A DNA stretch of 64,000 nucleotides from Lysobacter capsici. Lineage in GTDB: Bacteria > Pseudomonadota > Gammaproteobacteria > Xanthomonadales > Xanthomonadaceae. The translations under genes were made by a program, and so were the position numbers. A model generated the notes under the pieces. That model did no database searches. It saw only the letters and a program-made list of their open reading frames with translations, and had not been told where the DNA came from. Below, one piece after another: positions 6,333-63,095 of this stretch. The first letter of the stretch is position 1. Every line of letters begins with the position of its first letter. Location of the stretch: assembly GCF_014779555.2 (NCBI RefSeq), contig NZ_CP094357.1, positions 4,960,001 to 5,024,000 of the forward strand. Reading direction: 5' to 3'.

Positions 6333-7349
6333 TTACTGATGCAGCATCAGCAGCTCGAACCCGATCCAGGCCAGCAAGGCCACCAGCAGGATCGCGCCCT
6401 CGCGCTTGCTGATGCGCAGGTCGCCCTTGAGCATCGGGTACAGCATCAGGGCGAACACCGCCGCGGCCGGCAGTTCGAAGCGCACGAACGATGCGGGCAG
6501 CGGCACCGTATGCAGCGCGGCCATGCCGCCGAGCACGATCAGCAGATTGAACAGGCTCGAACCGATCACATGGCCGACCACGATGTCGCCCTGCCCGCGC
6601 CGCGCCGCGGCGACCGCGGCGGCGACTTCGGGCAGCGCGGTGCCGATCGCGACCGGCAGCAAGCCGGTCAGCAGCGGCGACAGGCCCAGGCCGGCGCCGA
6701 TGATGGCCGCGTTCGGCGAACCGAACCCGCCGGCCAGCGCGGGCGCGGCGTTGCCGAAGCTCCACAGGCCGTTGCCGCCGACGATCAGATACGCACCCAG
6801 GTGCAGCAGCAGCACGGCGATCAGCACCCGCACCAGATTCAGGCCCAGATTGGTCTGGGTCTGGGCGAACGCGGCGATGGCCTCCTGCAGCTCGGGCGCC
6901 TCATGGCGGGTGCGCGAAGTCGCGTAGGCGACCACGACCACGAACGCCACCAGCATCGCCACGCCTTCCCAGCGGCTGAGCGCGCCGTCCAGGCCCAGAC
7001 CGATCACCACCAGCGTGCCCACCAGCAGCAGCACCAGCAGCGGCGCCAGCGCGCGCCAGCGCACCACCAGCGGCGCGGCCAGCGCCGCCAGGCCCAGGGT
7101 CAGGCCGAAGTTGACGATATTGCTGCCGACCGCGTTGCCGAGCGCCAGCGCCTGCTGGCCGCGCACCACCGCCTGCAGGTTGACCGCCAGTTCCGGCAAC
7201 GAGGTGGCGAACGCAACCAGCACCAGGCCGGCGGCGAACGGCGAGGCGCCGAAGCGCTGGGCCAGGCCGGAGGCGCCCTTGACGATCGAATCGCCGCCCA
7301 GGGCCAGCAGAAACAGGCCCAATACGAACAAGCCGACGGCTTCGAACAT
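6333..7349 (-). CDS. Cation/Ca2+ antiporter of the CaCA family (YrbG-like)
   Basis: 338 residues with ten or more hydrophobic helices and the two internally homologous alpha repeats of this superfamily: FATSLPELAVNLQAV...LGNAVGSNIVNFG in the first half and IGTALPEVAAAVAAA...VGHVIGSSLFNLLIV in the second. The paired glutamates and GS(N/S) motifs form the ion site in structures of the family. Members exchange Ca2+ or other cations for Na+, K+ or H+. The substrate is not fixed by the sequence. Its stop codon abuts the 151-bp repeat array. Confidence 0.9.
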   Translation of the reverse strand: MFEAVGLFVLGLFLLALGGDSIVKGASGLAQRFGASPFAAGLVLVAFATSLPELAVNLQAVVRGQQALALGNAVGSNIVNFGLTLGLAALAAPLVVRWRALAPLLVLLLVGTLVVIGLGLDGALSRWEGVAMLVAFVVVVAYATSRTRHEAPELQEAIAAFAQTQTNLGLNLVRVLIAVLLLHLGAYLIVGGNGLWSFGNAAPALAGGFGSPNAAIIGAGLGLSPLLTGLLPVAIGTALPEVAAAVAAARRGQGDIVVGHVIGSSLFNLLIVLGGMAALHTVPLPASFVRFELPAAAVFALMLYPMLKGDLRISKREGAILLVALLAWIGFELLMLHQ

Positions 7350-13147: not shown

Positions 13148-13644
13148 GCGGGCCCGAAGGGCGGCACGCATGGATGCGTGCCGTAGGCCACCCAGGACAT
13201 GGATGTCCTGTGTGGCCTACCCCCGCGTAAGCACCGCACTTGCGGGCTCTTGATTCGAAACAGGAACGCCTTTTTCTTTGGTTACTTTCTTTTGTGGCTT
13301 TGGACAAAAGAAAGTTACCCGCCGCTTTAGCGGCGGAAGCTTTTGATGTTGCCCCAAGCTTTGAAGCTCCAAAGCTCCAAAGCTTTGAAGCTTTGAAGCT
13401 TTGAAGCTTCAGAGCTTGAAGCTTCAGAGCCTTCAAGCCAGAGGCAAGATCAGCAGCTTCCGCCCGCAAGCGGGCGGGTTACTTTCTTTTGTCTAAAGCA
13501 ACAAAAGAAAGGTAACCAAAGAAAAATGCTTTTTTGTGAATCAAGGGCCCGCGCGATCGGTCCAGACGCGGGCATGCGCCACACGGGACATCCTGTCCCG
13601 GTGGCGCACGGCGCACATCCATGTGCGCCGCCCTTCGGGTGTGC
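13148..13644. repeat. Large inverted repeat: two ~185-bp copies of a palindrome-rich element
   Basis: The left copy (about 13148-13337) and right copy (about 13461-13644, inverted) share the same order of parts: CCCGAAGGGCGGC, a hairpin with a GCATGGATGC-type core, a second hairpin (GGACATGGATGTCC on the left, GGGACATCCTGTCCC on the right), CTTGATTC, TTTTTCTTTGGTTAC, TTTCTTTTGT, ACAAAAGAAAGT(T/A)ACC and a closing GC hairpin. Between the copies is an AAGCTTTGAAGC/CTCCAAAG microsatellite (13360-13435). No protein gene is seen, so it looks like a non-coding dispersed element. Confidence 0.8.
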
Positions 13645-40351: not shown

Positions 40352-40427
40352 TGGTGCCGCTTGTCCGAATCGAACGGACGACCGCTCGCTTACAAGGCGA
40401 GTGCTCTACCAACTGAGCTAAAGCGGC
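40352..40427 (-). tRNA. tRNA-Thr (anticodon UGU)
   Basis: 76 bases including the encoded CCA. The acceptor stem is GCCGCTT / AAGCGGC with discriminator A; the D-arm is AGCTCAGTTGGTAGAGC; the anticodon stem-loop is CTCGC-CTTGTAA-GCGAG with anticodon TGT; the T-arm is GTCCG-TTCGATT-CGGAC. All four arms pair perfectly. Confidence 0.97.
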
Positions 40428-55102: not shown

Positions 55103-56137
55103 TTACGAACGCACCGTTACGCGCCAGCACTGCCGATCGACCTGCACCCAGTCGATCTCCACCGGCAGGAACTTCTCGATCAGGCGCGCGTTGCTCGACA
55201 AATGATCGCTGATGAAGGCCGTGGTGAACTCGCCGCCGCCGGCCAGCGCCATCGGCAGCAGCAACTGGTCGGACAAGTGCTCGCCGACCGCGGCCGACGA
55301 CGCCAGATAGGCCGACACCTGCTTGACCAGGCCGATCGCGACCTGCTCGGCGCTGAGACCGCGCTCGCCCAAGGCACTGAACAACTCGGTGTGCTGCTGC
55401 TCGCCCTGCACGCGCAGCATCAGCACGTTGCCCGGGCTTTGCGCGAGCGCGGCGCGACGCAGGTGCTGATGCTCGGGCGCAAGGCCCAGGCGTTCGGCGA
55501 CGACCTGCAACTCGCGCTGGCCGATCTGGTCGTGCAAGGCCGACAACAACGCGGTCGCATCCAATCGCGGCGCCGGATCGCGCTGGTCGAACGCGTGCGT
55601 GCGCAGTCGCGCGTTCGGCGCGACCCGCAGTTGCAGCGCGCCACCACCGGCCGGGAAGAAGCCGTGGCGCAGCAAGGCGAACTCGGTGTCCACGCCCATG
55701 CGTCGCAACGCCGGCAAATAGGCCTCGGCGATGAAGTCCGCGCACGGCGCGAGCGGATTATGGGTGCCGCCCTCGATGGTCACCTCCGACGGCCCGTCGC
55801 ACGACCACAGCGCCGGCAATACCGTCTGCATCACCAAGGTCGCCGACCCGGCGGTGCCGATCGAGAAACGGTAACGCCCCGGATTGACCGCGCCGGGGAT
55901 GAAACGCAGCGTGGTCGCGCCCAATTGCGCACCGTCCACATGCGCGCAGCCGATTTGCGCCGCCGCGCCGACCGCGGTCAGATGCTGGCGCATCAAGCCC
56001 GGGCGCGAACGCTTGGCGCGGATGTGCTGCATCTCGAACGCCGTGCCGGTGCACAGGCTCAGGCTCAATGCGGTACGCAGCAACTGTCCGCCGCCCTCGA
56101 TCCCGCTGATTTCGATCAATTCCATCTTGCGATCCAT
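55103..56137 (-). CDS. rtcA: RNA 3'-terminal phosphate cyclase RtcA
   Basis: 344 residues from the ATG at 56137 (an ATG at 56125 is possible). Signatures: IEISGIEGGGQLLRTALSLS, RPGLMRQHLTAV, RFSIGTAGSATLVMQTVLPA and GGGTHNP-type VTIEGGTHNPLAPCADF. The catalytic His287 lies in GEHLSDQLLLPMALAGGG (E. coli His309). RtcA forms 2',3'-cyclic phosphates at RNA 3' ends using ATP, the substrate chemistry for RtcB. It is the last gene of the rsr-Y RNA-rtcB-rtcA transcript, 122 bases after rtcB. Confidence 0.96.
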   Translation of the reverse strand: MDRKMELIEISGIEGGGQLLRTALSLSLCTGTAFEMQHIRAKRSRPGLMRQHLTAVGAAAQIGCAHVDGAQLGATTLRFIPGAVNPGRYRFSIGTAGSATLVMQTVLPALWSCDGPSEVTIEGGTHNPLAPCADFIAEAYLPALRRMGVDTEFALLRHGFFPAGGGALQLRVAPNARLRTHAFDQRDPAPRLDATALLSALHDQIGQRELQVVAERLGLAPEHQHLRRAALAQSPGNVLMLRVQGEQQHTELFSALGERGLSAEQVAIGLVKQVSAYLASSAAVGEHLSDQLLLPMALAGGGEFTTAFISDHLSSNARLIEKFLPVEIDWVQVDRQCWRVTVRS

Positions 56138-56259
56138 GACTCGGGGCGGCCTTGCGGACGCCCGTACTCCTTTATCTATCCAATCTCTCATCGGACGGCC
56201 AATACCGTCCATGTGTATCGCCGATCCGCGCGCGGGCGAACTTCATCCGCGCGACGACA

Positions 56260-57501
56260 TCAACCCTTGACGCACACCACCTGCCGCAGCGTATGCACGA
56301 TTTCGACCAGGTCGCTCTGCGCGGCCATGACCGCGTCGATCGACTTGTAAGCGGCCGGCGACTCGTCGACCACCTCGGCATCCTTGCGGCATTCCACGTG
56401 CGCGGTCGCCTTGGCGTGATCCTCCAGGCTGATGCGCTTCTTCGCCTCGGTGCGGCTCATCACTCGGCCCGCGCCGTGGCTGCAGCTGTGGAAGCTGTCG
56501 GCGTTGCCCAGGCCGCGCACGATGAAGCTCTTGGCGCCCATGCTGCCCGGGATGATGCCCAGCTCGCCCTTGCGCGCGCTCACCGCGCCCTTGCGGGTCA
56601 CCAGCACGTCCTTGCCGAAATGGTGCTCGCGGTTGACGTAGTTGTGGTGACAGTTCACCGCCTCGGCCTGGGCCTGGAACGGTTTGGCGATCACCTTGCG
56701 CACCGCCTCGACCACGTGCTTCATCATGATCTCGCGGTTGCTGCGCGCGAACTGCTGCGCCCACTCGACCGCATGCACGTAGTCGTTGTAGTGATCGCTG
56801 CCTTCGGGCAGATAGGCCAGGTCCTGGTCCGGCAGATTGATCATCCAGCGGCGCATGTCCTGCTTGGCCAGTTCGATGAAGTGGCTGCCGATCGCGTTGC
56901 CGACGCCGCGCGAACCCGAGTGCAGCATGAACCACACGCGGTTCTCCTCGTCCAGGCAGACCTCGACGAAGTGATTGCCGGTGCCGAGCGTCCCCAGGTG
57001 ATTCAAGTGATTGCTGCGCTCGAGCTTCGGATGCTTGGCAATGATGCGATCGAAGCCCTCGTGCAGGCCCGACCAGCGCTGCAACGAAGCCTGCGGCGGA
57101 TTCGCCCAGGCGCCCTTGTCGCGCAGGCCGCGGCCGACGGTGCGGCCGTGCGGCACCGCTTTCTCGATCGCCGCGCGCACTTCGCCCAACTGGTCCGGCA
57201 GATCGTTGGCGGTCAGCGTGGTACGCACCGCGATCATGCCGCAGCCGATGTCGACGCCGACCGCCGCCGGCACGATCGCGCCCACGGTCGGCACCACCGA
57301 ACCCACGGTCGCGCCCTTGCCGAGATGCACGTCGGGCATCACCGCGATCCAGCGATGGATGAAGGGCAGCTTGGCGATGTTCTGCAACTGGCGACGCGCT
57401 TCGTCTTCCAGCGGCACGCCGCGGGTCCAGTGCTTGATCGGCACCGAGCCCGGGTCGTTGATGACATCGTAATGGACGTCGGCGTGGGTATTGGCGTTCA
57501 T
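56260..57501 (-). CDS. rtcB: RNA ligase RtcB (3'-phosphate / 5'-OH)
   Basis: 413 residues. The manganese motif is AVGVDIGCGMIAV (Asp84, Cys87); other metal ligands lie in GTGNHFVEV and HSGSRGVG. The guanylylated His342 is in HSCSHGAGRVMSR (E. coli His337). RtcB joins 2',3'-cyclic or 3'-phosphate ends to 5'-OH ends with GTP, repairing or splicing RNA. Preceded by AGAGAG before the ATG at 57501. It lies downstream of the four Y RNA-like elements and upstream of rtcA. Confidence 0.97.
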   Translation of the reverse strand: MNANTHADVHYDVINDPGSVPIKHWTRGVPLEDEARRQLQNIAKLPFIHRWIAVMPDVHLGKGATVGSVVPTVGAIVPAAVGVDIGCGMIAVRTTLTANDLPDQLGEVRAAIEKAVPHGRTVGRGLRDKGAWANPPQASLQRWSGLHEGFDRIIAKHPKLERSNHLNHLGTLGTGNHFVEVCLDEENRVWFMLHSGSRGVGNAIGSHFIELAKQDMRRWMINLPDQDLAYLPEGSDHYNDYVHAVEWAQQFARSNREIMMKHVVEAVRKVIAKPFQAQAEAVNCHHNYVNREHHFGKDVLVTRKGAVSARKGELGIIPGSMGAKSFIVRGLGNADSFHSCSHGAGRVMSRTEAKKRISLEDHAKATAHVECRKDAEVVDESPAAYKSIDAVMAAQSDLVEIVHTLRQVVCVKG

Positions 57502-57653
57502 GGTCTTGCTCTCTGTGTTGCGGGCCTCGCGGCCCTCGCTTCCGCCGTCGGTCCTCGCCGGCGGAAAGGTGAAGGATGCAGTGTCGCGGCGCATGCGGCC
57601 AGCGCTGGTCAGCGCCCGGGGCATGACGACCGTTCGCGGCGGTAGAGGCGCGG
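57502..57653 (-). other. rtcB leader with hairpin
   Basis: The 150 bases between the last Y RNA-like element and rtcB contain the hairpin TTCCGCCG...CGGCGGAA (57540-57566) and no gene. It may separate the RNA from the mRNA part of the transcript. Confidence 0.45.
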
Positions 57654-57722
57654 CACGATGCGACAAGTAAAAGCGGAACCTTGAACTTGGAAGGTTGTAG
57701 TTCCGCCCGCATTCGCATCGTG
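57654..57722 (-). ncRNA. Mini Y RNA-like element lacking the tRNA module
   Basis: Read on the minus strand, a perfect 10-bp outer stem (CACGATGCGA / TCGCATCGTG) encloses GCGAATGC, then the inner stem GCGGAAC / GTTCCGC, with AACTACA after its 5' side. These are the same landmarks as in the three larger elements upstream, but the region between is only about 20 bases (a short CCTT/AAGG hairpin) instead of the tRNA-like module. It is the element nearest rtcB. Confidence 0.65.
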
Positions 57723-57740
57723 ACGCGTTTGAAGCAAAAG

Positions 57741-57871
57741 CCGATGTATCGCGACCAGGTTTACGCGGAACATTCTGTGCTCTACCCGACTGAGCTACCG
57801 TCTCGCAACGGGCGGGATTCGAACCCGCGACACCAGGTCAATGTAGTTCCACAGGCATTCGCGATACAGCG
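57741..57871 (-). ncRNA. Y RNA-like element 1 with tRNA-like module
   Basis: On the minus strand: 5' outer stem with GTATCGCGA, the conserved GCGAATGC, inner stem GTGGAAC / GTTCCGC, then AACTACA. Inside is a permuted tRNA mimic: the T-arm GCGGG-TTCGAAT-CCCGC comes first, then an acceptor-like stem closed by a loop (CCGT-TGCGAG-ACGG), then a D-arm-like GGTAGCTCAGTCGGGTAGAG. There is no anticodon arm and no CCA. This is the architecture of YrlA-type bacterial Y RNAs. It lies in the rsr-rtcB gap. Confidence 0.82.
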
Positions 57872-57914
57872 GTAAAACGATGAGCACACGGCCCGGACCA
57901 CATTGGCCGGAGCC

Positions 57915-58051
57915 GGCGCACTGCGACAAATTTTTGGCGAAACAACTAACTCACCGTTCTACCCGGCTGAACCACCGCCTTGCGGCGGGCGGGATTCGAA
58001 CCCGCGCCTGTGAGCCCCTATGTAGTTTCGCCGGCATTCGCAGCGCGTCGG
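57915..58051 (-). ncRNA. Y RNA-like element 2 with tRNA-like module
   Basis: Same layout: outer stem with CTGCGA, GCGAATGC, inner stem GGCGAAAC / GTTTCGCC (perfect), AACTACA, T-arm GCGGG-TTCGAAT-CCCGC, closed acceptor mimic CCGCC-GCAA-GGCGG and D-arm-like GGTTCAGCCGGGTAGAAC. The base changes relative to elements 1 and 3 are mostly compensatory in stems, which supports the fold. Confidence 0.82.
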
Positions 58052-58095
58052 CGTGACCGAAAAAAAATCGATTGAAGCATGTGAAGCATTGAGTG

Positions 58096-58232
58096 CCGAT
58101 ATATCGCGACTAAAGGCGACGAAACGTTTTCCCGCTCTATCCGCTGATCTACCGTCCTGCGACGGGTGGGATTCGAACCCACGACCTGGCACGTGATAGG
58201 TGTAGTTTCGTCAAGCATTCGCGATACATCGA
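58096..58232 (-). ncRNA. Y RNA-like element 3 with tRNA-like module
   Basis: The element nearest rsr. The outer stem GATGTATCGCGA / TCGCGATATATC pairs over 12 bases; then GCGAATGC; inner stem GACGAAAC / GTTTCGTC; AACTACA; T-arm GTGGG-TTCGAAT-CCCAC; acceptor mimic CCGTC-GCAG-GACGG; and D-arm-like GGTAGATCAGCGGATAGAGC. The inner stem with its GNCGAA sequence fits the Ro60-binding helix described for bacterial Y RNAs. Confidence 0.84.
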
Positions 58233-58407: not shown

Positions 58408-59958
58408 TTACAGCGCGATCGAATCGATCCGCTCCACCCAACGCGTCGCCGTCCCGCCCTGCGCCGCGTACACCGCCAACAGATCGAACACCGCGTCGCT
58501 GAAGCCGCCGATATGCAGCACGTCCGGCGACTCGACCGTCTGGCTGGTCGCGGTCGGCTGCAAGTCGATGCAGACCAGCCGCGCATCCGGGCAACGCGCC
58601 TTGATCTGCGCCCACTCGCGCATGGTCGCGGTCGCGCCGCCGTTGCGGGTGTCGCGCCAGCTTTCGTTGTCCGACACGAGCACCAGCAAATCGACCCGGG
58701 ACTTGTCGCGATTCAACTGCGCCAACGGCGCGCTGACCGCGGTACCGCCGCCGCACAAACCGGCCAACTGCGTCGCCAGCGTCATCACGCTGTCGCGCGG
58801 ATTCAGGCGCAACTTGCGCACCTCGGTGTCGAACGGCATCACCCGCGCGCCCTTGTGGTTGCGCTGGATGCAGGCCGCGACCAGCGCCGCCACGTCGACA
58901 CAGCGCATCTTCGTGGTCGCACCCTTGCGGTAACCGGTGACCGGCGACGCCATCGAACCCGACACGTCGACCGCGACCACGACATCGCCTTCCAGCGCCG
59001 GCACCTGGCGGGTCGCGATCTCCATCGCGTCCTGCAAGGCCTCCACGATCGCCGCCGGCAGGCCGGAGGCGGCGTGGTAGGCGCTCAACAACTGATACGG
59101 AAACACGCGGGCATTGCGGATTTCGTCGGCATCGGTCAGCCGCGCGACGATTTCGTACACGACCCCTTTGTCATCGAACACGCCATGACGCTGGAACGTG
59201 TTGAGGTTCATGCGCAGCGTCTGCCACGACACCGTCCGCGCCAGATGAATCCAATGCGACGTGGTCAGCGGCAACGAGCTGAAATACTGCATCGGCAGCT
59301 TCGGCATCGGCGCGGACTGCGAGCGCTTGAACGCCTCGTACGCCCGCATCTTGGCCGGCAGCGCCGCCTCGTCGACCGGCTTGCCGAGCAACCACGCATA
59401 CAGCGCGGCGCGCTCGGCATCGGCCGGCTTGGGATGAACCATCTTGATCACGTCGGCGAGCGAAGGCTGGTTGCCGATCGCCGCGTTCAACAACTGATCC
59501 ACCGAGGCGCGGTCGAGCCACTGCCGCACCAGACGCTTGGGACGCGAGCCCAGCGACTTGCGACCGACCTGCCCGCTGCGCACGATCTGGACGAAGTTGC
59601 GCAGCATGCGGCCGTTGTCGATCACCCGGCCGAACGCGCGCTCGAACGCCTCGCCGTCGCGGCTGGTCAGGCTGGCCAGCAACAGCGCCGGCATGTCCTT
59701 CATATGGCCGCGCTGGCGGGTGTAGATCGCGGTCTTGGCGACGAACGCCGGCTCGACCTGCGCGCACAGCTTCAACACGTGATCGAGCTGCTGCTCGGCG
59801 CTGGCGTAGAAGGTGTTGTTCAAGCAGCCGGTGGCCGCGTACAGCGCCAGCGCCGACTCCGGGCGGCGCGCATAGGCCAGGCCGCCGGCCTCGTTGCGCG
59901 AGGTGGCCGCCGGCAGCGCCGGGCCGCGGGTCGAAGCGAAGAGGTTGAAGTTGGCCAT
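58408..59958 (-). CDS. rsr: Ro60 orthologue (TROVE and vWA domains), Rsr
   Basis: 516 residues. The N-terminal TROVE domain (HEAT-like ring, about 20-320) includes YAATGCLNNTFYAS and AFVAKTAIYTRQRGHMKDMP. The C-terminal von Willebrand A domain has the MIDAS motif DVSGSM (331-336) and a second metal-site loop LCGGGTAVSAPL. Ro60 binds Y RNAs on the ring surface and misfolded RNA ends in the hole; in bacteria it works with exoribonucleases in RNA quality control. It is the first gene behind the sigma-54 promoter, followed by its likely RNA partners. Confidence 0.95.
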   Translation of the reverse strand: MANFNLFASTRGPALPAATSRNEAGGLAYARRPESALALYAATGCLNNTFYASAEQQLDHVLKLCAQVEPAFVAKTAIYTRQRGHMKDMPALLLASLTSRDGEAFERAFGRVIDNGRMLRNFVQIVRSGQVGRKSLGSRPKRLVRQWLDRASVDQLLNAAIGNQPSLADVIKMVHPKPADAERAALYAWLLGKPVDEAALPAKMRAYEAFKRSQSAPMPKLPMQYFSSLPLTTSHWIHLARTVSWQTLRMNLNTFQRHGVFDDKGVVYEIVARLTDADEIRNARVFPYQLLSAYHAASGLPAAIVEALQDAMEIATRQVPALEGDVVVAVDVSGSMASPVTGYRKGATTKMRCVDVAALVAACIQRNHKGARVMPFDTEVRKLRLNPRDSVMTLATQLAGLCGGGTAVSAPLAQLNRDKSRVDLLVLVSDNESWRDTRNGGATATMREWAQIKARCPDARLVCIDLQPTATSQTVESPDVLHIGGFSDAVFDLLAVYAAQGGTATRWVERIDSIAL

Positions 59959-59992: not shown

Positions 59993-60009
59993 AGCAAGCG
60001 CCGTGCCAA
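59993..60009 (-). promoter_or_regulatory. Sigma-54 (-24/-12) promoter of the rsr-rtcBA operon
   Basis: On the minus strand TTGGCACGGCGCTTGCT matches the sigma-54 consensus (TGGCAC, five bases, TTGCW) at every conserved base. Transcription would begin about 12 bases further, near 59980, giving a leader of about 20 bases before rsr. This is the promoter expected for control by RtcR, a sigma-54 activator encoded divergently. Confidence 0.93.
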
Positions 60010-60135: not shown

Positions 60136-61728
60136 ATGAAGCGCCAGGTCGTCATCGGCATGCTCGGCACCCAACTCGACGCGGCCTCCGGCCCGGGCCG
60201 CTGGGAAAAATGGCGTCCGACCGTCTCGCTGGGCATGCACGAGGATTTCCTGCTCGACCGCCTGGAGCTGATCGTCGACGAGCGCCGCTTCGGCAAGCTC
60301 GCTCAGCTGGTTGCGCAGGATCTGGCCCAGGTCTCGCCGGAAACCCAGGTGCGGCGCCACGACACCTTTCTCGCCGATCCTTGGGATTTCGAAAGCGTCT
60401 ACGGCGTGCTGCACGACTTCGTGCGCGCCTACGATTTCCAGCCCGACGAAGAGGACTACTACGTCCACATCACCACCGGCACCCACGTCAGCCAGATCTG
60501 CTGGTTCCTGCTGACCGAAAGCCGATTGTTCCCGGGGCGCCTGCTGCAGACCGCGCCGCCGCGCAAACAGACAGGCGAGGCGCCAGGCACGTATGCGGTG
60601 ATCGACCTGGACCTGTCGCGCTACGACCGCATCGCCCAACGTTTCGCGCAAGAAAGACTGCACGATCGCGACCTGCTCAAGAGCGGCATCGCCACTCGCA
60701 ATCCCGCTTTCAACCGCATGATCGAGCAGATCGAAACCGTCGCCACGCGCTCGAAGTCGCCGATGCTGCTGATGGGCCCGACCGGCGCCGGCAAGAGCCA
60801 GCTCGCGCGGCGCGTGTTCGAACTCAAGAAGCAGAAGCACCAGCTGCCCGGGCGCTTCGTCGAAGTGAACTGCGCGACCCTGCGCGGCGACGGCGCGATG
60901 AGCACCTTGTTCGGCCATATCAAGGGCGCCTACACCGGCGCGTCGACCGACCGCGCCGGCCTGCTGCGTTCGGCGCACCAGGGCCTGCTGTTTCTCGACG
61001 AGATCGGCGAACTGGGCCAGGACGAGCAGGCGATGCTGCTGCGCGCGCTGGAAGAAAAACGCTTCCTGCCGGTCGGTGGCGACAAGGAAGTCGAAAGCGA
61101 TTTCCAGTTGATCGCCGGCACCAACCGCGATCTGCAGGTCGCGGTGCATGAGGGCCGTTTCCGCGACGACCTGCTCGCGCGCCTGAACCTGTGGACGTAT
61201 CGCCTGCCCGGCCTGGCCGAACGCGCCGAGGACATCGAGCCGAACCTGGATTTCGAACTCGAGCGTCACTCACGCGAAAACCGCCAGCGGGTGACCTTCA
61301 ATCGCGAAGCGCGCGAACGTTATCTGACCTTCGCGCGCAGCGGCGAAGCGACCTGGGGCGGCAACTTCCGCGACCTGGGTGCGTCGGTGATGCGGCTGGC
61401 CACTCTGGCCGAGGGCGGGCGCATCCGCCTGGATCTGGTCGACGAGGAAATCGAACGCCTGCGCCGGCAATGGCACGGGGCGGGCGCGCAGCGATCGTTG
61501 CTCGATGAGGTGCTCGGCGAAGGCGCGGCGCAGCTCGATCGCTTCGACCGGGTGCAGCTGGAAGACGTGCTGCGCGTATGCCGGCGGGCGAAGAACCTGT
61601 CGCAAGCCGGGCGCGAGCTGTTCGCGGTATCGCGTTCGCTCAAGGCCAGCAGCAACGACGCCGATCGCTTGCGCAAGTATCTGGCGCGGTTCGGGCTCGA
61701 TTGGGAGCAATTGCGCGCAGGGGTTTGA
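60136..61728 (+). CDS. rtcR: Sigma-54 activator RtcR
   Basis: 530 residues. The N-terminal 180 residues form the RtcR regulatory domain of CARF type (MKRQVVIGMLGTQLDAASGP, VHITTGTHVSQICWFLLTES). The AAA+ domain has Walker A GPTGAGKS (214-221), the sigma-54 loop GAYTGA (264-269; Tyr replaces the usual Phe) and Walker B LLFLDE (284-289). The C-terminal helix-turn-helix lies near 480-525. CARF domains bind cyclic oligonucleotides or RNA fragments; in E. coli RtcR responds to RNA damage signals. It is divergent from rsr. Confidence 0.96.
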   Translation: MKRQVVIGMLGTQLDAASGPGRWEKWRPTVSLGMHEDFLLDRLELIVDERRFGKLAQLVAQDLAQVSPETQVRRHDTFLADPWDFESVYGVLHDFVRAYDFQPDEEDYYVHITTGTHVSQICWFLLTESRLFPGRLLQTAPPRKQTGEAPGTYAVIDLDLSRYDRIAQRFAQERLHDRDLLKSGIATRNPAFNRMIEQIETVATRSKSPMLLMGPTGAGKSQLARRVFELKKQKHQLPGRFVEVNCATLRGDGAMSTLFGHIKGAYTGASTDRAGLLRSAHQGLLFLDEIGELGQDEQAMLLRALEEKRFLPVGGDKEVESDFQLIAGTNRDLQVAVHEGRFRDDLLARLNLWTYRLPGLAERAEDIEPNLDFELERHSRENRQRVTFNREARERYLTFARSGEATWGGNFRDLGASVMRLATLAEGGRIRLDLVDEEIERLRRQWHGAGAQRSLLDEVLGEGAAQLDRFDRVQLEDVLRVCRRAKNLSQAGRELFAVSRSLKASSNDADRLRKYLARFGLDWEQLRAGV

Positions 61729-61749: not shown

Positions 61750-63021
61750 TCACGCCTCCTGTGGCTGCGCCTCGCGCTGCGCCTGCGCCGCCAACGCCTG
61801 ACGCGCCAGACACTCGCGTCCACGCCGGCCCGGCGCCATCAACAAGCCGGTGCTGGCGAGGAAGAACCGTTCCAGTTCCATCGACACGCTGCTGACCACG
61901 CAGAACTCGTCGCCTTCCTGGTGATTGATCGCGTGGTACAGGCCGATGCCGCGCGCTTCCAGATCGGCCACGACCCGCGGCAGCAACTGCTTCGGTGCCT
62001 GCCACGGCAATTGCGGATAGTCCCAGTGCGCATGATGCAGGCGTCGCGGATCGATCTCGCCCATCACGCAGGCGCGCAGCTTGGGGTAGTCGACCAGCAG
62101 ATCCAATGCGAGCTGATCGAGTTCGACCAGATGCGGCGCGTTTTCCTTGATGTCCACGCACTGGGTCAGTTCGGTCAATGCGCGCGTCGCCGCATGCGTG
62201 GCATAGGGCGAAGCGCCGCAGCCGTGCGGAAACACGATTTCCTCGGGCAAGCGTTCCTCGGTCGTGGCGATGAAGGCCGGATAGGCCAGGTCGCTGGTCA
62301 CGTCGATCAGCAATACGCGACGTTCGAGACGGCGCTGCGCAAGCTCGTGGATACGCGCAAGCTCGGCCGGCAGCGACGACGGCTCGATCAGGCGACCGTA
62401 ACGCGCCGGCGCGCCGAGGTAGTGCGCGAGCATGAACAACGCCCACGCGTCGCGTTCGACGATCTCGCCGATGCCGTGCAGCGCGGCTTCCTCGAAGCTG
62501 GCGCCGATCGCGGTGCCGCTGTTGGAGCTGTAGCGGGTCGCGCTGTGGTAGTCGAAATCGTCGCGCGGATCGCGCAACTCGACCGCGGGCGGATAATCGG
62601 GAAACACCATGAACAACGGCACGGCCAGATCGGCCCGGCCAGAATACGACGCGTACTGGCGGCACGCCAGATGGCGCTGGGATTGATCGGCGAACTCGGA
62701 CACGAACGGCAGGCCGGCGCAGCGCGGGTCGTCGGCGAGTTCGCGCGCGGCTACGAACAGCGGTTCGGTGGCCAGCGCGGACGCGCGGCAGTAGTAGTGT
62801 TCGACCGCTTCGTACAAGGCGCCGGTCAACGAGGCGGCGGGTTCGCCCTTGCCGGAACCGCGACTGAGCAGTCGCCCCTGCGCATCGTGCAGGGCGCACT
62901 TGATCGTGACCAGGCCATGGCCGAACTCACCGGTCTGCGCGCTCCAGCCGCGCCGCGCGATGCAGGCGTGGATGATGCGGTTGGCCTCGTCCAGGCTGCG
63001 CTCTCGTTCGTACGGAATCAT
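61750..63021 (-). CDS. Stand-alone YcaO-domain protein
   Basis: 423 residues from the ATG at 63021 (AACAAGGA before it). ATP-binding YcaO motifs: SGKGEPAASLTGALYEAVEH (55-74), SFEEAALHGIGEIVERDAWA (175-194) and THAATRALTELTQC later. The usual partner domain of azoline cyclodehydratases is absent, and the C-terminus (EAQPQEA) lacks the PxPxP tail common in them. YcaO enzymes activate amide bonds to form azolines, thioamides or amidines. It follows a 59-codon gene that may encode its substrate, and is convergent with rtcR (21-base gap). Confidence 0.85.
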   Translation of the reverse strand: MIPYERERSLDEANRIIHACIARRGWSAQTGEFGHGLVTIKCALHDAQGRLLSRGSGKGEPAASLTGALYEAVEHYYCRASALATEPLFVAARELADDPRCAGLPFVSEFADQSQRHLACRQYASYSGRADLAVPLFMVFPDYPPAVELRDPRDDFDYHSATRYSSNSGTAIGASFEEAALHGIGEIVERDAWALFMLAHYLGAPARYGRLIEPSSLPAELARIHELAQRRLERRVLLIDVTSDLAYPAFIATTEERLPEEIVFPHGCGASPYATHAATRALTELTQCVDIKENAPHLVELDQLALDLLVDYPKLRACVMGEIDPRRLHHAHWDYPQLPWQAPKQLLPRVVADLEARGIGLYHAINHQEGDEFCVVSSVSMELERFFLASTGLLMAPGRRGRECLARQALAAQAQREAQPQEA

Positions 63022-63065
63022 TCCTTGTTCCTCGCCAATGGTGCATGCGGTGCATGAGGGCGAAC

Positions 63066-63095
63066 GCATGGCGCGCGACAGTGCGCGCGCCATGC
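63066..63095 (-). other. Strong hairpin between the peptide gene and the YcaO gene
   Basis: GCATGGCGCGC / GCGCGCCATGC, an 11-bp perfect stem in the 85-base gap, with no T run. Such structures often reduce readthrough so that a precursor peptide is made in excess over its modifying enzyme. Confidence 0.7.

Follow-up and report, generated by a model that had tools for sequence, protein, structure and literature searches.

Four Y RNA units lie between rsr and rtcB in a 64,000-nucleotide stretch of the Lysobacter capsici genome (hereafter the window), and three of them carry a tRNA-like head. One head also contains an anticodon-like hairpin, an arm that is borne by most of the related loci examined and that the Rfam YrlA consensus leaves unmodelled. 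Across those loci, the hairpin occupies a single register, its stem changes while remaining paired, and its loop keeps anticodon-loop letters around a variable triplet. The hairpin-bearing Y RNAs are, in the modelled fold, circularly permuted tRNAs with all four arms. This arrangement bears on the role of the tRNA-like head and on the co-location of Ro60, Y RNA, RtcB and RtcA, questions raised in PMC7790460 and PMC9879122.

The Y RNA array and its operon

The array is flanked by rsr (58408–59958, minus strand; Pfam vWA_Ro60 7e-17, TROVE 1.6e-10), which encodes the bacterial Ro60 orthologue, and by the RNA ligase gene rtcB (56260–57501, minus strand; Pfam RtcB 1.9e-132 on the ORF 56260–57666, with the ATG likely at 57501), beyond which lies the RNA 3'-phosphate cyclase gene rtcA (55103–56212 for the ORF as listed, minus strand; Pfam RTC 3e-73). 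The gene for the sigma-54 activator RtcR is encoded divergently (60136–61728, plus strand; Pfam RtcR 8.9e-80). A sigma-54 (-24/-12) promoter-like site, TGGCACGGCGCTTGC, is located upstream of rsr by motif match (59994–60008, minus strand), with 35 bases between its 3' end and the rsr start codon; no other minus-strand site in the window matches the motif. The strict form of this motif precedes rsr in 46 of 79 relatives versus 16 of 800 random windows. With a divergent rtcR, a sigma-54 motif recognized from sequence, and rtcB and rtcA downstream, the locus has the layout of an RtcR-controlled RNA-repair operon, and the Y RNA units adjoin rsr, as YrlA membership requires. This layout bears out the earlier note, which had placed the elements in the rsr–rtcB gap of an RtcR-linked operon. 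The rtcB gene is on the same strand as rsr in 68 of 80 rsr loci, and in 66 of these 68 all collected Y units with a T-arm lie between the two genes. A gene for a YcaO-family protein adjoins rtcR in the window (61750–63093, minus strand), and a TwoAYGGAY RNA at 13161–13217 (plus strand) scores 46.7 bits, barely above its cut-off of 43.

All four units are on the minus strand. Unit 3 (Y3, 58100–58225) is the first after rsr and is YrlA-type with an anticodon-like hairpin (cmscan YrlA 56.4 bits, E = 7.5e-12); unit 2 (Y2, 57917–58044; 66.3 bits, 1e-14) is YrlA-type without this hairpin; unit 1 (Y1, 57745–57865; 84.6 bits, 5.3e-20) is YrlA-type with an 18-nt insert and no hairpin at the register described below. 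The matched spans are 121–128 bases, shorter than the 130–137 bases given in the earlier note, and the YrlA scores uphold its assignment to the Y RNA family. The covariance-model search that it had proposed for the gap gave a divided outcome, as unit 1 alone exceeds the Rfam gathering cut-off of YrlA (RF02553, 69 bits) and units 2, 3 and 0 fall below it. Unit 1 is thus an RF02553 member, and units 2 and 3 are YrlA-type paralogues outside Rfam membership. The last unit before rtcB, unit 0 (Y0, 57652–57724), is a short hairpin that scores 28.1 bits with YrlB, for which the cut-off is 97 bits (RF02565), and 32.2 bits with YrlA, again far below the cut-off; it is named YrlB-like rather than YrlB because of this score. 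A structure scan of unit 0 for a T-arm and a D-arm found neither. The earlier count of three putative Ro60 partner RNAs holds in that there are several, and it rises to four because unit 0 lies inside the stretch that had been assigned to three.

The three mimics share GCGAATGC, an inner stem and CTACA; to these they add a T-arm, an acceptor-like stem that is closed, a D-arm and, on the 3' side, the strand GTCGC. The T-arm/acceptor/D-arm module repeats every 177 bases. The T-arms are located at 58166–58182 (unit 3, GUGGG-UUCGAAU-CCCAC), 57989–58005 (unit 2) and 57812–57828 (unit 1), and the D-arms at 58134–58149 (unit 3), 57956–57972 (unit 2, D-stem GUUC/GAAC) and 57779–57795 (unit 1); the T-arms and the unit 1 D-arm were located by both cmscan and the structure scan. 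Units 1, 2 and 3 thus present the T-arm, acceptor-like stem and D-arm in permuted order, with one A.G mismatch in the D-stem of unit 3 that is absent from its orthologues in Lysobacter sp. Root690 and ISL-50. Between copies, the D-stem changes in pairs (GCTC/GAGC versus GTTC/GAAC, a compensated change in unit 2), as does the T-stem (GCGGG/CCCGC versus GTGGG/CCCAC), which agrees with the earlier remark on paired stem changes, and the T-loop UUCGAAU is identical in all three. The outer-helix strands GAAUGC/GUCGC, which the literature gives as the Rsr site, are present in all four units in a structure scan that demanded at least 6 of 7 outer pairs. The outer stems of units 0, 1 and 3 extend for 13–15 nt at 92–93% complementarity.

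In a YrlA model search of the whole 6.24-Mb genome, units 1–3 score highest; besides unit 0, there are six further, weak matches (21–34.1 bits), all of which overlap tRNA genes. Weak RF02553 matches of this kind span neighbouring tRNA genes (for example, G000:C1:1960043-1960185), probably because a T-arm and the next D-arm imitate the permuted order, and they call for caution in annotation. We suspect, judging by score alone, that YrlA matches of 42–48 bits in other genomes are also tRNA-gene overlaps. Degenerate tRNA genes were considered for the array itself and ruled out, since ARAGORN finds none there and the units carry Rsr-binding strands. The only tRNA that ARAGORN reports in the window is a tRNA-Thr at 40352–40427, and the acceptor stems of units 1–3 are closed by a loop, leaving no free acceptor end.

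A search with the rsr protein yielded 80 named loci, the nearest being those of Lysobacter sp. Root690 (L038, 96% protein identity), ISL-50 (L039, 84%), yr284 (78%) and L. enzymogenes (76%). Units were collected with a model, R1, built from 25 units, and with the structure scan; the best 150 of 249 R1 matches were aligned (A3), T-arm units from the structure scan were added for L038–L117, and one unit without the CTAC motif was set aside before counting. Full mimics with both a T-arm and a D-arm number 0, 1, 2, 3 and 4 in 4, 46, 20, 7 and 3 of the 80 loci, counts that are lower bounds because contig ends cut some loci. At least two are present in 30 loci and at least three in 10, so the idea that three copies are exceptional, advanced in the earlier note, was rejected: the window belongs to the top eighth and is not unique. 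Several Y RNAs per locus are common in the examined loci, and the array as such is ordinary for its kind.

Are the copies interchangeable? Unit 1 is 95% identical to its orthologue in Root690 and 92% in ISL-50, unit 3 is 95% (L038:6751-6876) and 86% (L039:6741-6869), and unit 0 is 95% and 86%; unit 2 is 90% identical to L039:6925-7053 and 70% to the second-place unit of Root690. The window mimics are 66–74% identical to each other. Orthologues at 86–95% versus paralogues at 66–74% indicate that the array has diversified, with some turnover. Such distinct orthologous units fit separate roles of the copies, without amounting to proof, and the copies may differ in targets or processing. By eye, a palindromic repeat appears to be inserted between two Y units of Root690 (L038, approximately 7060–7260), and other repeats lie between Y units at L044.

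An anticodon-like arm in the Y RNA head

The window and the 80 loci together hold 121 full units, of which 93 have a long insert (20–27 nt) between CUAC and the T-arm; the register test omits the other 28, whose inserts are shorter than 20 nt. Three Watson-Crick pairs close a 7-nt loop in 75 of these 93 units, at a register that ends exactly 10 nt before the T-arm. The hairpin is absent at this register from the remaining 18, window unit 2 among them. Loops of 4, 5, 6, 8, 9 and 10 nt are found in only 0, 0, 1, 0, 2 and 1 units. Shifted registers give 0–2 stems by Watson-Crick pairing and 0–3 with G.U pairs allowed, except for a shift of +4, which gives 18 stems with G.U pairs and none with Watson-Crick pairs. 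Positions 39 to 48 likewise number ten in a tRNA whose variable loop has five nucleotides, so the hairpin sits exactly in the anticodon register. Furthermore, nucleotides 27–28, which follow the D-arm, pair with 42–43 in all 75 hairpin units (CG/CG in 41, GG/CC in 32, GC/GC in one and CC/GG in one). Combined with the three hairpin pairs, these two pairs constitute a five-pair anticodon stem. On this model, the tRNA chain is opened after position 28 and before position 29, and the Rsr-binding helix joins at this opening.

The stem is also recovered comparatively. In a MAFFT alignment of the 75 hairpin units (A4), RNAalifold recovers two of the hairpin's three pairs unaided; both partners of these pairs have changed in 20 and 33 of the 75 units, respectively. 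The full structure pairs 98.2% of cells versus 83.3% after shuffling, and its covariation is 0.436 versus 0.150, a value that none of 500 shuffles attained; structures slid along the alignment pair 35–48%. Of 74 rows, 13 leave the third, outermost hairpin pair unpaired and 7 have a gap there, which we ascribe to MAFFT displacing the 5' strand where the insert is longer or shorter; in the gap-free register this pair is formed in 75 of 75 units, by selection. Because A4 and the covariation include only units chosen for a paired stem, stem pairing is partly there by construction; the loop letters and the 27–28/42–43 pairs were not selected, and the loop is the cleaner test. The hairpin stem occurs as 16 sequence types among the 75 units, with at least 27 type changes on the Rsr tree of 67 loci.

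The loop letters are those of an anticodon loop. U33 is present in 70 of the 75 units, C or U at position 32 in 72 and A37 in 68; the weighted information is 1.73 bits at position 33 and 1.36 bits at position 37 versus 0.03, 0.50 and 0.27 bits at positions 34–36. The Rsr tree requires at least 44 changes of the triplet, compared with 4 of U33 and 6 of position 37. Of the columns with letters in 60 or more of the 67 rows, position 34 varies most (29 changes), followed by position 36 (25); positions 38, 44 and one T-loop column reach 23 changes, and linker and acceptor-loop columns 19–21. The rate of the triplet thus exceeds that of the fastest free positions only slightly, if at all. Do the loops copy particular tRNAs? 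Loops equal to those of own tRNAs are CUCUUAA (Lys) in 13 units, CUUCUAA (Arg) in 6, CUGUCAC (Asp) in 4, CUCAUAA (Met) and CUGUUAA (Asn) in 2 each and CUUUUAA (Lys) in 1, giving 28 of 75; after thinning, the matches number 9 of 27 versus 5.4–5.9 by shuffling (P 0.04–0.06), barely above chance; loops that copy particular tRNAs are at most weakly indicated. What is kept is thus the anticodon-loop shape, and no particular anticodon is clearly retained.

A further sample contains the same arm. A random draw of 398 Pseudomonadota genomes included 10 with a window-like rsr (E up to 1e-30), one of them the window's own genome; of the nine others, L197 repeats L117 and is uncounted; the check for repeats relied on a single exact match of 120 bases for each locus. 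The exact hairpin is found in seven of the eight further loci, L196 being the one without it, and U33 and A37 are each present in five of the seven loops. One of the seven, L195, shares its genome with L027, whose unit trained R1 and is outside the 75. The unit of L202 in this draw is classed as lacking a D-arm.

In the window, the hairpin is found at 58190–58202 (minus strand) in unit 3, the only one of the three mimics with an anticodon-like loop. Its stem is CAC/GTG, and its loop CUAUCAC corresponds to positions 32–38 with the triplet AUC, which matches none of the 43 anticodons parsed from the genome's own tRNAs. Stem and loop are identical in the Root690 and ISL-50 orthologues. The statement in the earlier note that the elements have no anticodon arm is therefore wrong for 58100–58225, as it is for at least one unit in 66 of the 80 related loci. 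Its description of three related elements with paired stem changes otherwise stands, corrected in number, length and anticodon arm; its interpretation retains the family, the operon and several putative Ro60 partners and loses the exceptional number and the missing arm.

Single-sequence folding is less favourable to unit 3, for which the tRNA-like fold (-33.8 kcal/mol) lies 8 kcal/mol above the minimum free energy (MFE) structure (-42.0 kcal/mol); the hairpin is absent from that structure. The tRNA-like folds of its orthologues in Root690 and ISL-50 are approximately 3 kcal/mol above their own MFEs. The D-stem of unit 3 places A opposite G, where 73 of 74 distinct rows have C, and the head may be weakened in this strain, as far as ViennaRNA energies, which leave out tertiary contacts, can indicate. 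In unit 2, a possible five-pair stem, CUCAC/GUGAG, could replace the hairpin and run into the Rsr-binding arm; it is part of the MFE structure of the ISL-50 orthologue and absent from that of unit 2 itself. A three-pair stem is possible in unit 1 and is absent from its MFE structure. The tRNA-like folds of units 2 and 1 lie 5 and 3 kcal/mol above the MFE. Shuffling gives folding-energy z values of -0.32, -2.23 and -1.54 for units 1, 2 and 3 and -4.64 for unit 0 (MFE -29.4). Folding energy alone does not single out the mimics, and the support for the proposed fold is comparative.

Other loci hold further variants. Two Pseudomonadota loci, L196 (genome G437) and L198 (G517), have rsr arrays of at least six Y-like units, some of which resemble tRNAs opened in the D-loop, with a D-stem, a 5-bp anticodon arm, an AGGUC variable loop, a T-arm and a 7-bp acceptor (for example, L198 3589–3716 of the reverse complement). 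A unit at L196 4028–4159 (reverse complement) has, by eye, an apparent leucine-type long variable arm. A detector for D-loop permutation found 10 such units, with 10 of 17 testable units fully paired versus a shuffled mean of 5.1 and maximum of 9, a count that makes the class only suggestive. Half mimics, with a T-arm and an acceptor-like hairpin and no D-arm found, include L076:6699-6799, L057:6633-6734 and similar units, and are often the first unit in Variovorax and its relatives. The D-arm of L044:7180-7307, GUCUAGAGGACCAGG, resembles, by eye, that of tRNA-Glu. Two phage-labelled records with enterobacterial-looking rsr–Y–rtcB stretches have a third Y-like unit after yrlA (L164:924-1034 and L165:1077-1187; 30.4 bits with R1). 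In Myxococcus phage Mx1 (L166), genes for a tRNA-Gly and a peptidyl-tRNA hydrolase lie downstream of an rsr-like gene, and model R1 detects no Y unit in the 7.6 kb covered.

Possible roles of the tRNA-like heads

What might such heads do? We propose that the window encodes four Rsr-binding Y RNAs, three of them with tRNA-like heads, in one stress-induced operon and that anticodon-bearing heads act as decoys or reporters; taken as a whole, including this mechanism, we judge the proposal about evenly balanced between right and wrong. The predicted operon order is rsr–Y3–Y2–Y1–Y0–rtcB–rtcA, with the sigma-54 promoter and the divergently encoded RtcR driving stress induction. All four RNAs would carry the Rsr-binding outer helix, to which Y1, Y2 and Y3 would add a tRNA-like head, ordered in the Y3 type as anticodon hairpin, variable loop, T-arm, loop-closed acceptor stem and D-arm. 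Stress would cut anticodon loops, and the resulting tRNA fragments would switch RtcR on, so that the ligase and the cyclase would be made together with Rsr particles whose heads either have or lack an anticodon loop. Such heads could engage tRNA-handling proteins, such as modification enzymes or an exoribonuclease like PNPase, and the anticodon-bearing heads could engage anticodon nucleases as decoys or reporters. The RNAs would have to be expressed in this strain and to bind Rsr for either role.

Several observations in other bacteria are relevant to this proposal. PMC7790460 describes activation of Salmonella RtcR by tRNA fragments cut in the anticodon loop, in one strain via a prophage, and PMC9879122 describes VapC expression or colicin D treatment as able to yield an RtcR-activating signal in E. 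coli. The authors of PMC7790460 suggest that YrlA may compete for a nuclease. RNAs with an anticodon loop inside an operon that answers anticodon breakage would make this idea of nuclease competition more concrete. Against the mechanism, two of the three window mimics have no anticodon hairpin, the D-stem of unit 3 is mismatched, and PMC7790460 reports that fragments of Salmonella YrlA, an RNA that may or may not carry an anticodon loop, were unseen during tRNA cleavage, which we count against our own explanation. A decoy for one particular tRNA is further weakened by the unmatched AUC triplet and the near-chance loop matches. A PrrC/RloC-type nuclease encoded in the same genome was rejected as a partner, since a search of that genome for the family AAA_13 gave no match. 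A broader claim, that Ro60-bound Y RNAs of RtcR operons are full circularly permuted tRNA replicas, made in sets of varied opening and hypervariable triplet, and serve anticodon nucleases from phages, plasmids or toxin-antitoxin systems as decoys or cleavage reporters, appears rather unlikely to us; it would place the opening sites in the anticodon stem, the anticodon loop or the D-loop and couple the replicas to the repair enzymes of the operon.

The Y RNAs could instead be tethers only, which hold Rsr to an exoribonuclease, with the head as a PNPase handle or a stable cap and the hairpin as a roleless relic of a tRNA ancestor. We regard this account as possible, if somewhat doubtful. PMC7790460, PMC8394870 and PMC9879122 describe a D. 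radiodurans particle in which Y RNA tethers Rsr to PNPase, as well as the binding of PNPase by Salmonella Rsr and YrlA; the tether role in D. radiodurans accounts for the Rsr helix alone, and the hypervariable triplet and the absence of the hairpin from two of the three window mimics point the same way. However, only 4 and 6 changes at U33 and A37 against at least 44 in the triplet are not what a relic should show, nor should it compensate its stem through 27 type changes; the stem set was selected for pairing, and the loop letters were not.

Two further accounts concern the number of copies and their place in the transcript. That the extra copies are redundant or decaying products of tandem duplication with turnover, kept for dosage or being lost, is improbable in our judgement: the second unit of Root690 is only 70% like Y2 versus 90% for ISL-50, the Root690 array has the apparent palindromic insertion noted by eye, and in the window's Y3 one D-stem pair is broken, but Y1, Y3 and Y0 are kept at 86–95% across species versus 66–74% among the window mimics, the D-stem change of Y2 is compensated and all three mimics share the T-loop UUCGAAU. 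The tRNA-like modules might also be processing signals in the rsr–rtcB transcript, recognized in an RNase P/RNase Z-like manner or by RNase III, with the released RNAs being secondary. The units do sit between two coding regions of one predicted operon, and the long outer stems of units 0, 1 and 3 would suit such a function, but it is highly improbable given the Rsr-binding strands in all four units and the kept tRNA core residues of the heads, which processing alone leaves unexplained; the closed acceptor stems, moreover, would offer no usual RNase P or RNase Z cleavage site.

Comparison with known Y RNA systems

The window mimics resemble Salmonella YrlA (RF02553) in the GAAUGC/GUCGC Rsr stem, CUAC, T-arm, closed acceptor-like stem and D-arm, as well as in their position beside rsr and rtcB. 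They differ from it in that the array has three copies, two of them under the Rfam cut-off, and in that the anticodon hairpin of unit 3 and of most relatives lies within an insertion that the Rfam consensus does not model. Wang et al. reportedly described in 2018 a kinked stem corresponding to the anticodon stem. The review PMC8394870, in the sections available, gives bacterial Y RNAs T-, D- and acceptor-like arms and does not mention an anticodon hairpin for them. The corresponding sections of PMC7790460, PMC8394870, PMC9569102 and PMC9879122 describe no anticodon arm on Y RNAs; to our knowledge, which is limited because the core YrlA papers lie outside this survey, the arm may be unreported as a widespread covarying feature.

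Unit 0 is like YrlB (RF02565) in being short, in belonging to the same operon, in lacking a tRNA module and in having the GCGAAUGC and UUGUCGC strands, and unlike it in its score (28.1 bits against a cut-off of 97) and in being the last of the array. The operon order in Salmonella Typhimurium is rsr-yrlB-yrlA-rtcB-rtcA (PMC9879122), and the window shares with this rsr-yrlBA-rtcBA operon a single direction, a predicted sigma-54 promoter and a divergent rtcR (PMC9879122 for the Salmonella operon). In contrast, the window has four Y RNAs, with three YrlA-like units followed by a YrlB-like unit.

Permuted tRNA genes of archaea and algae encode the 3' half of the tRNA ahead of the 5' half, and the window mimics likewise place the tRNA 3' half first. 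Unlike the products of those genes, the window RNAs show no sign of maturation into tRNA; their permuted order is predicted to persist, in molecules that have an acceptor stem closed by a loop and an arm that would bind Rsr.
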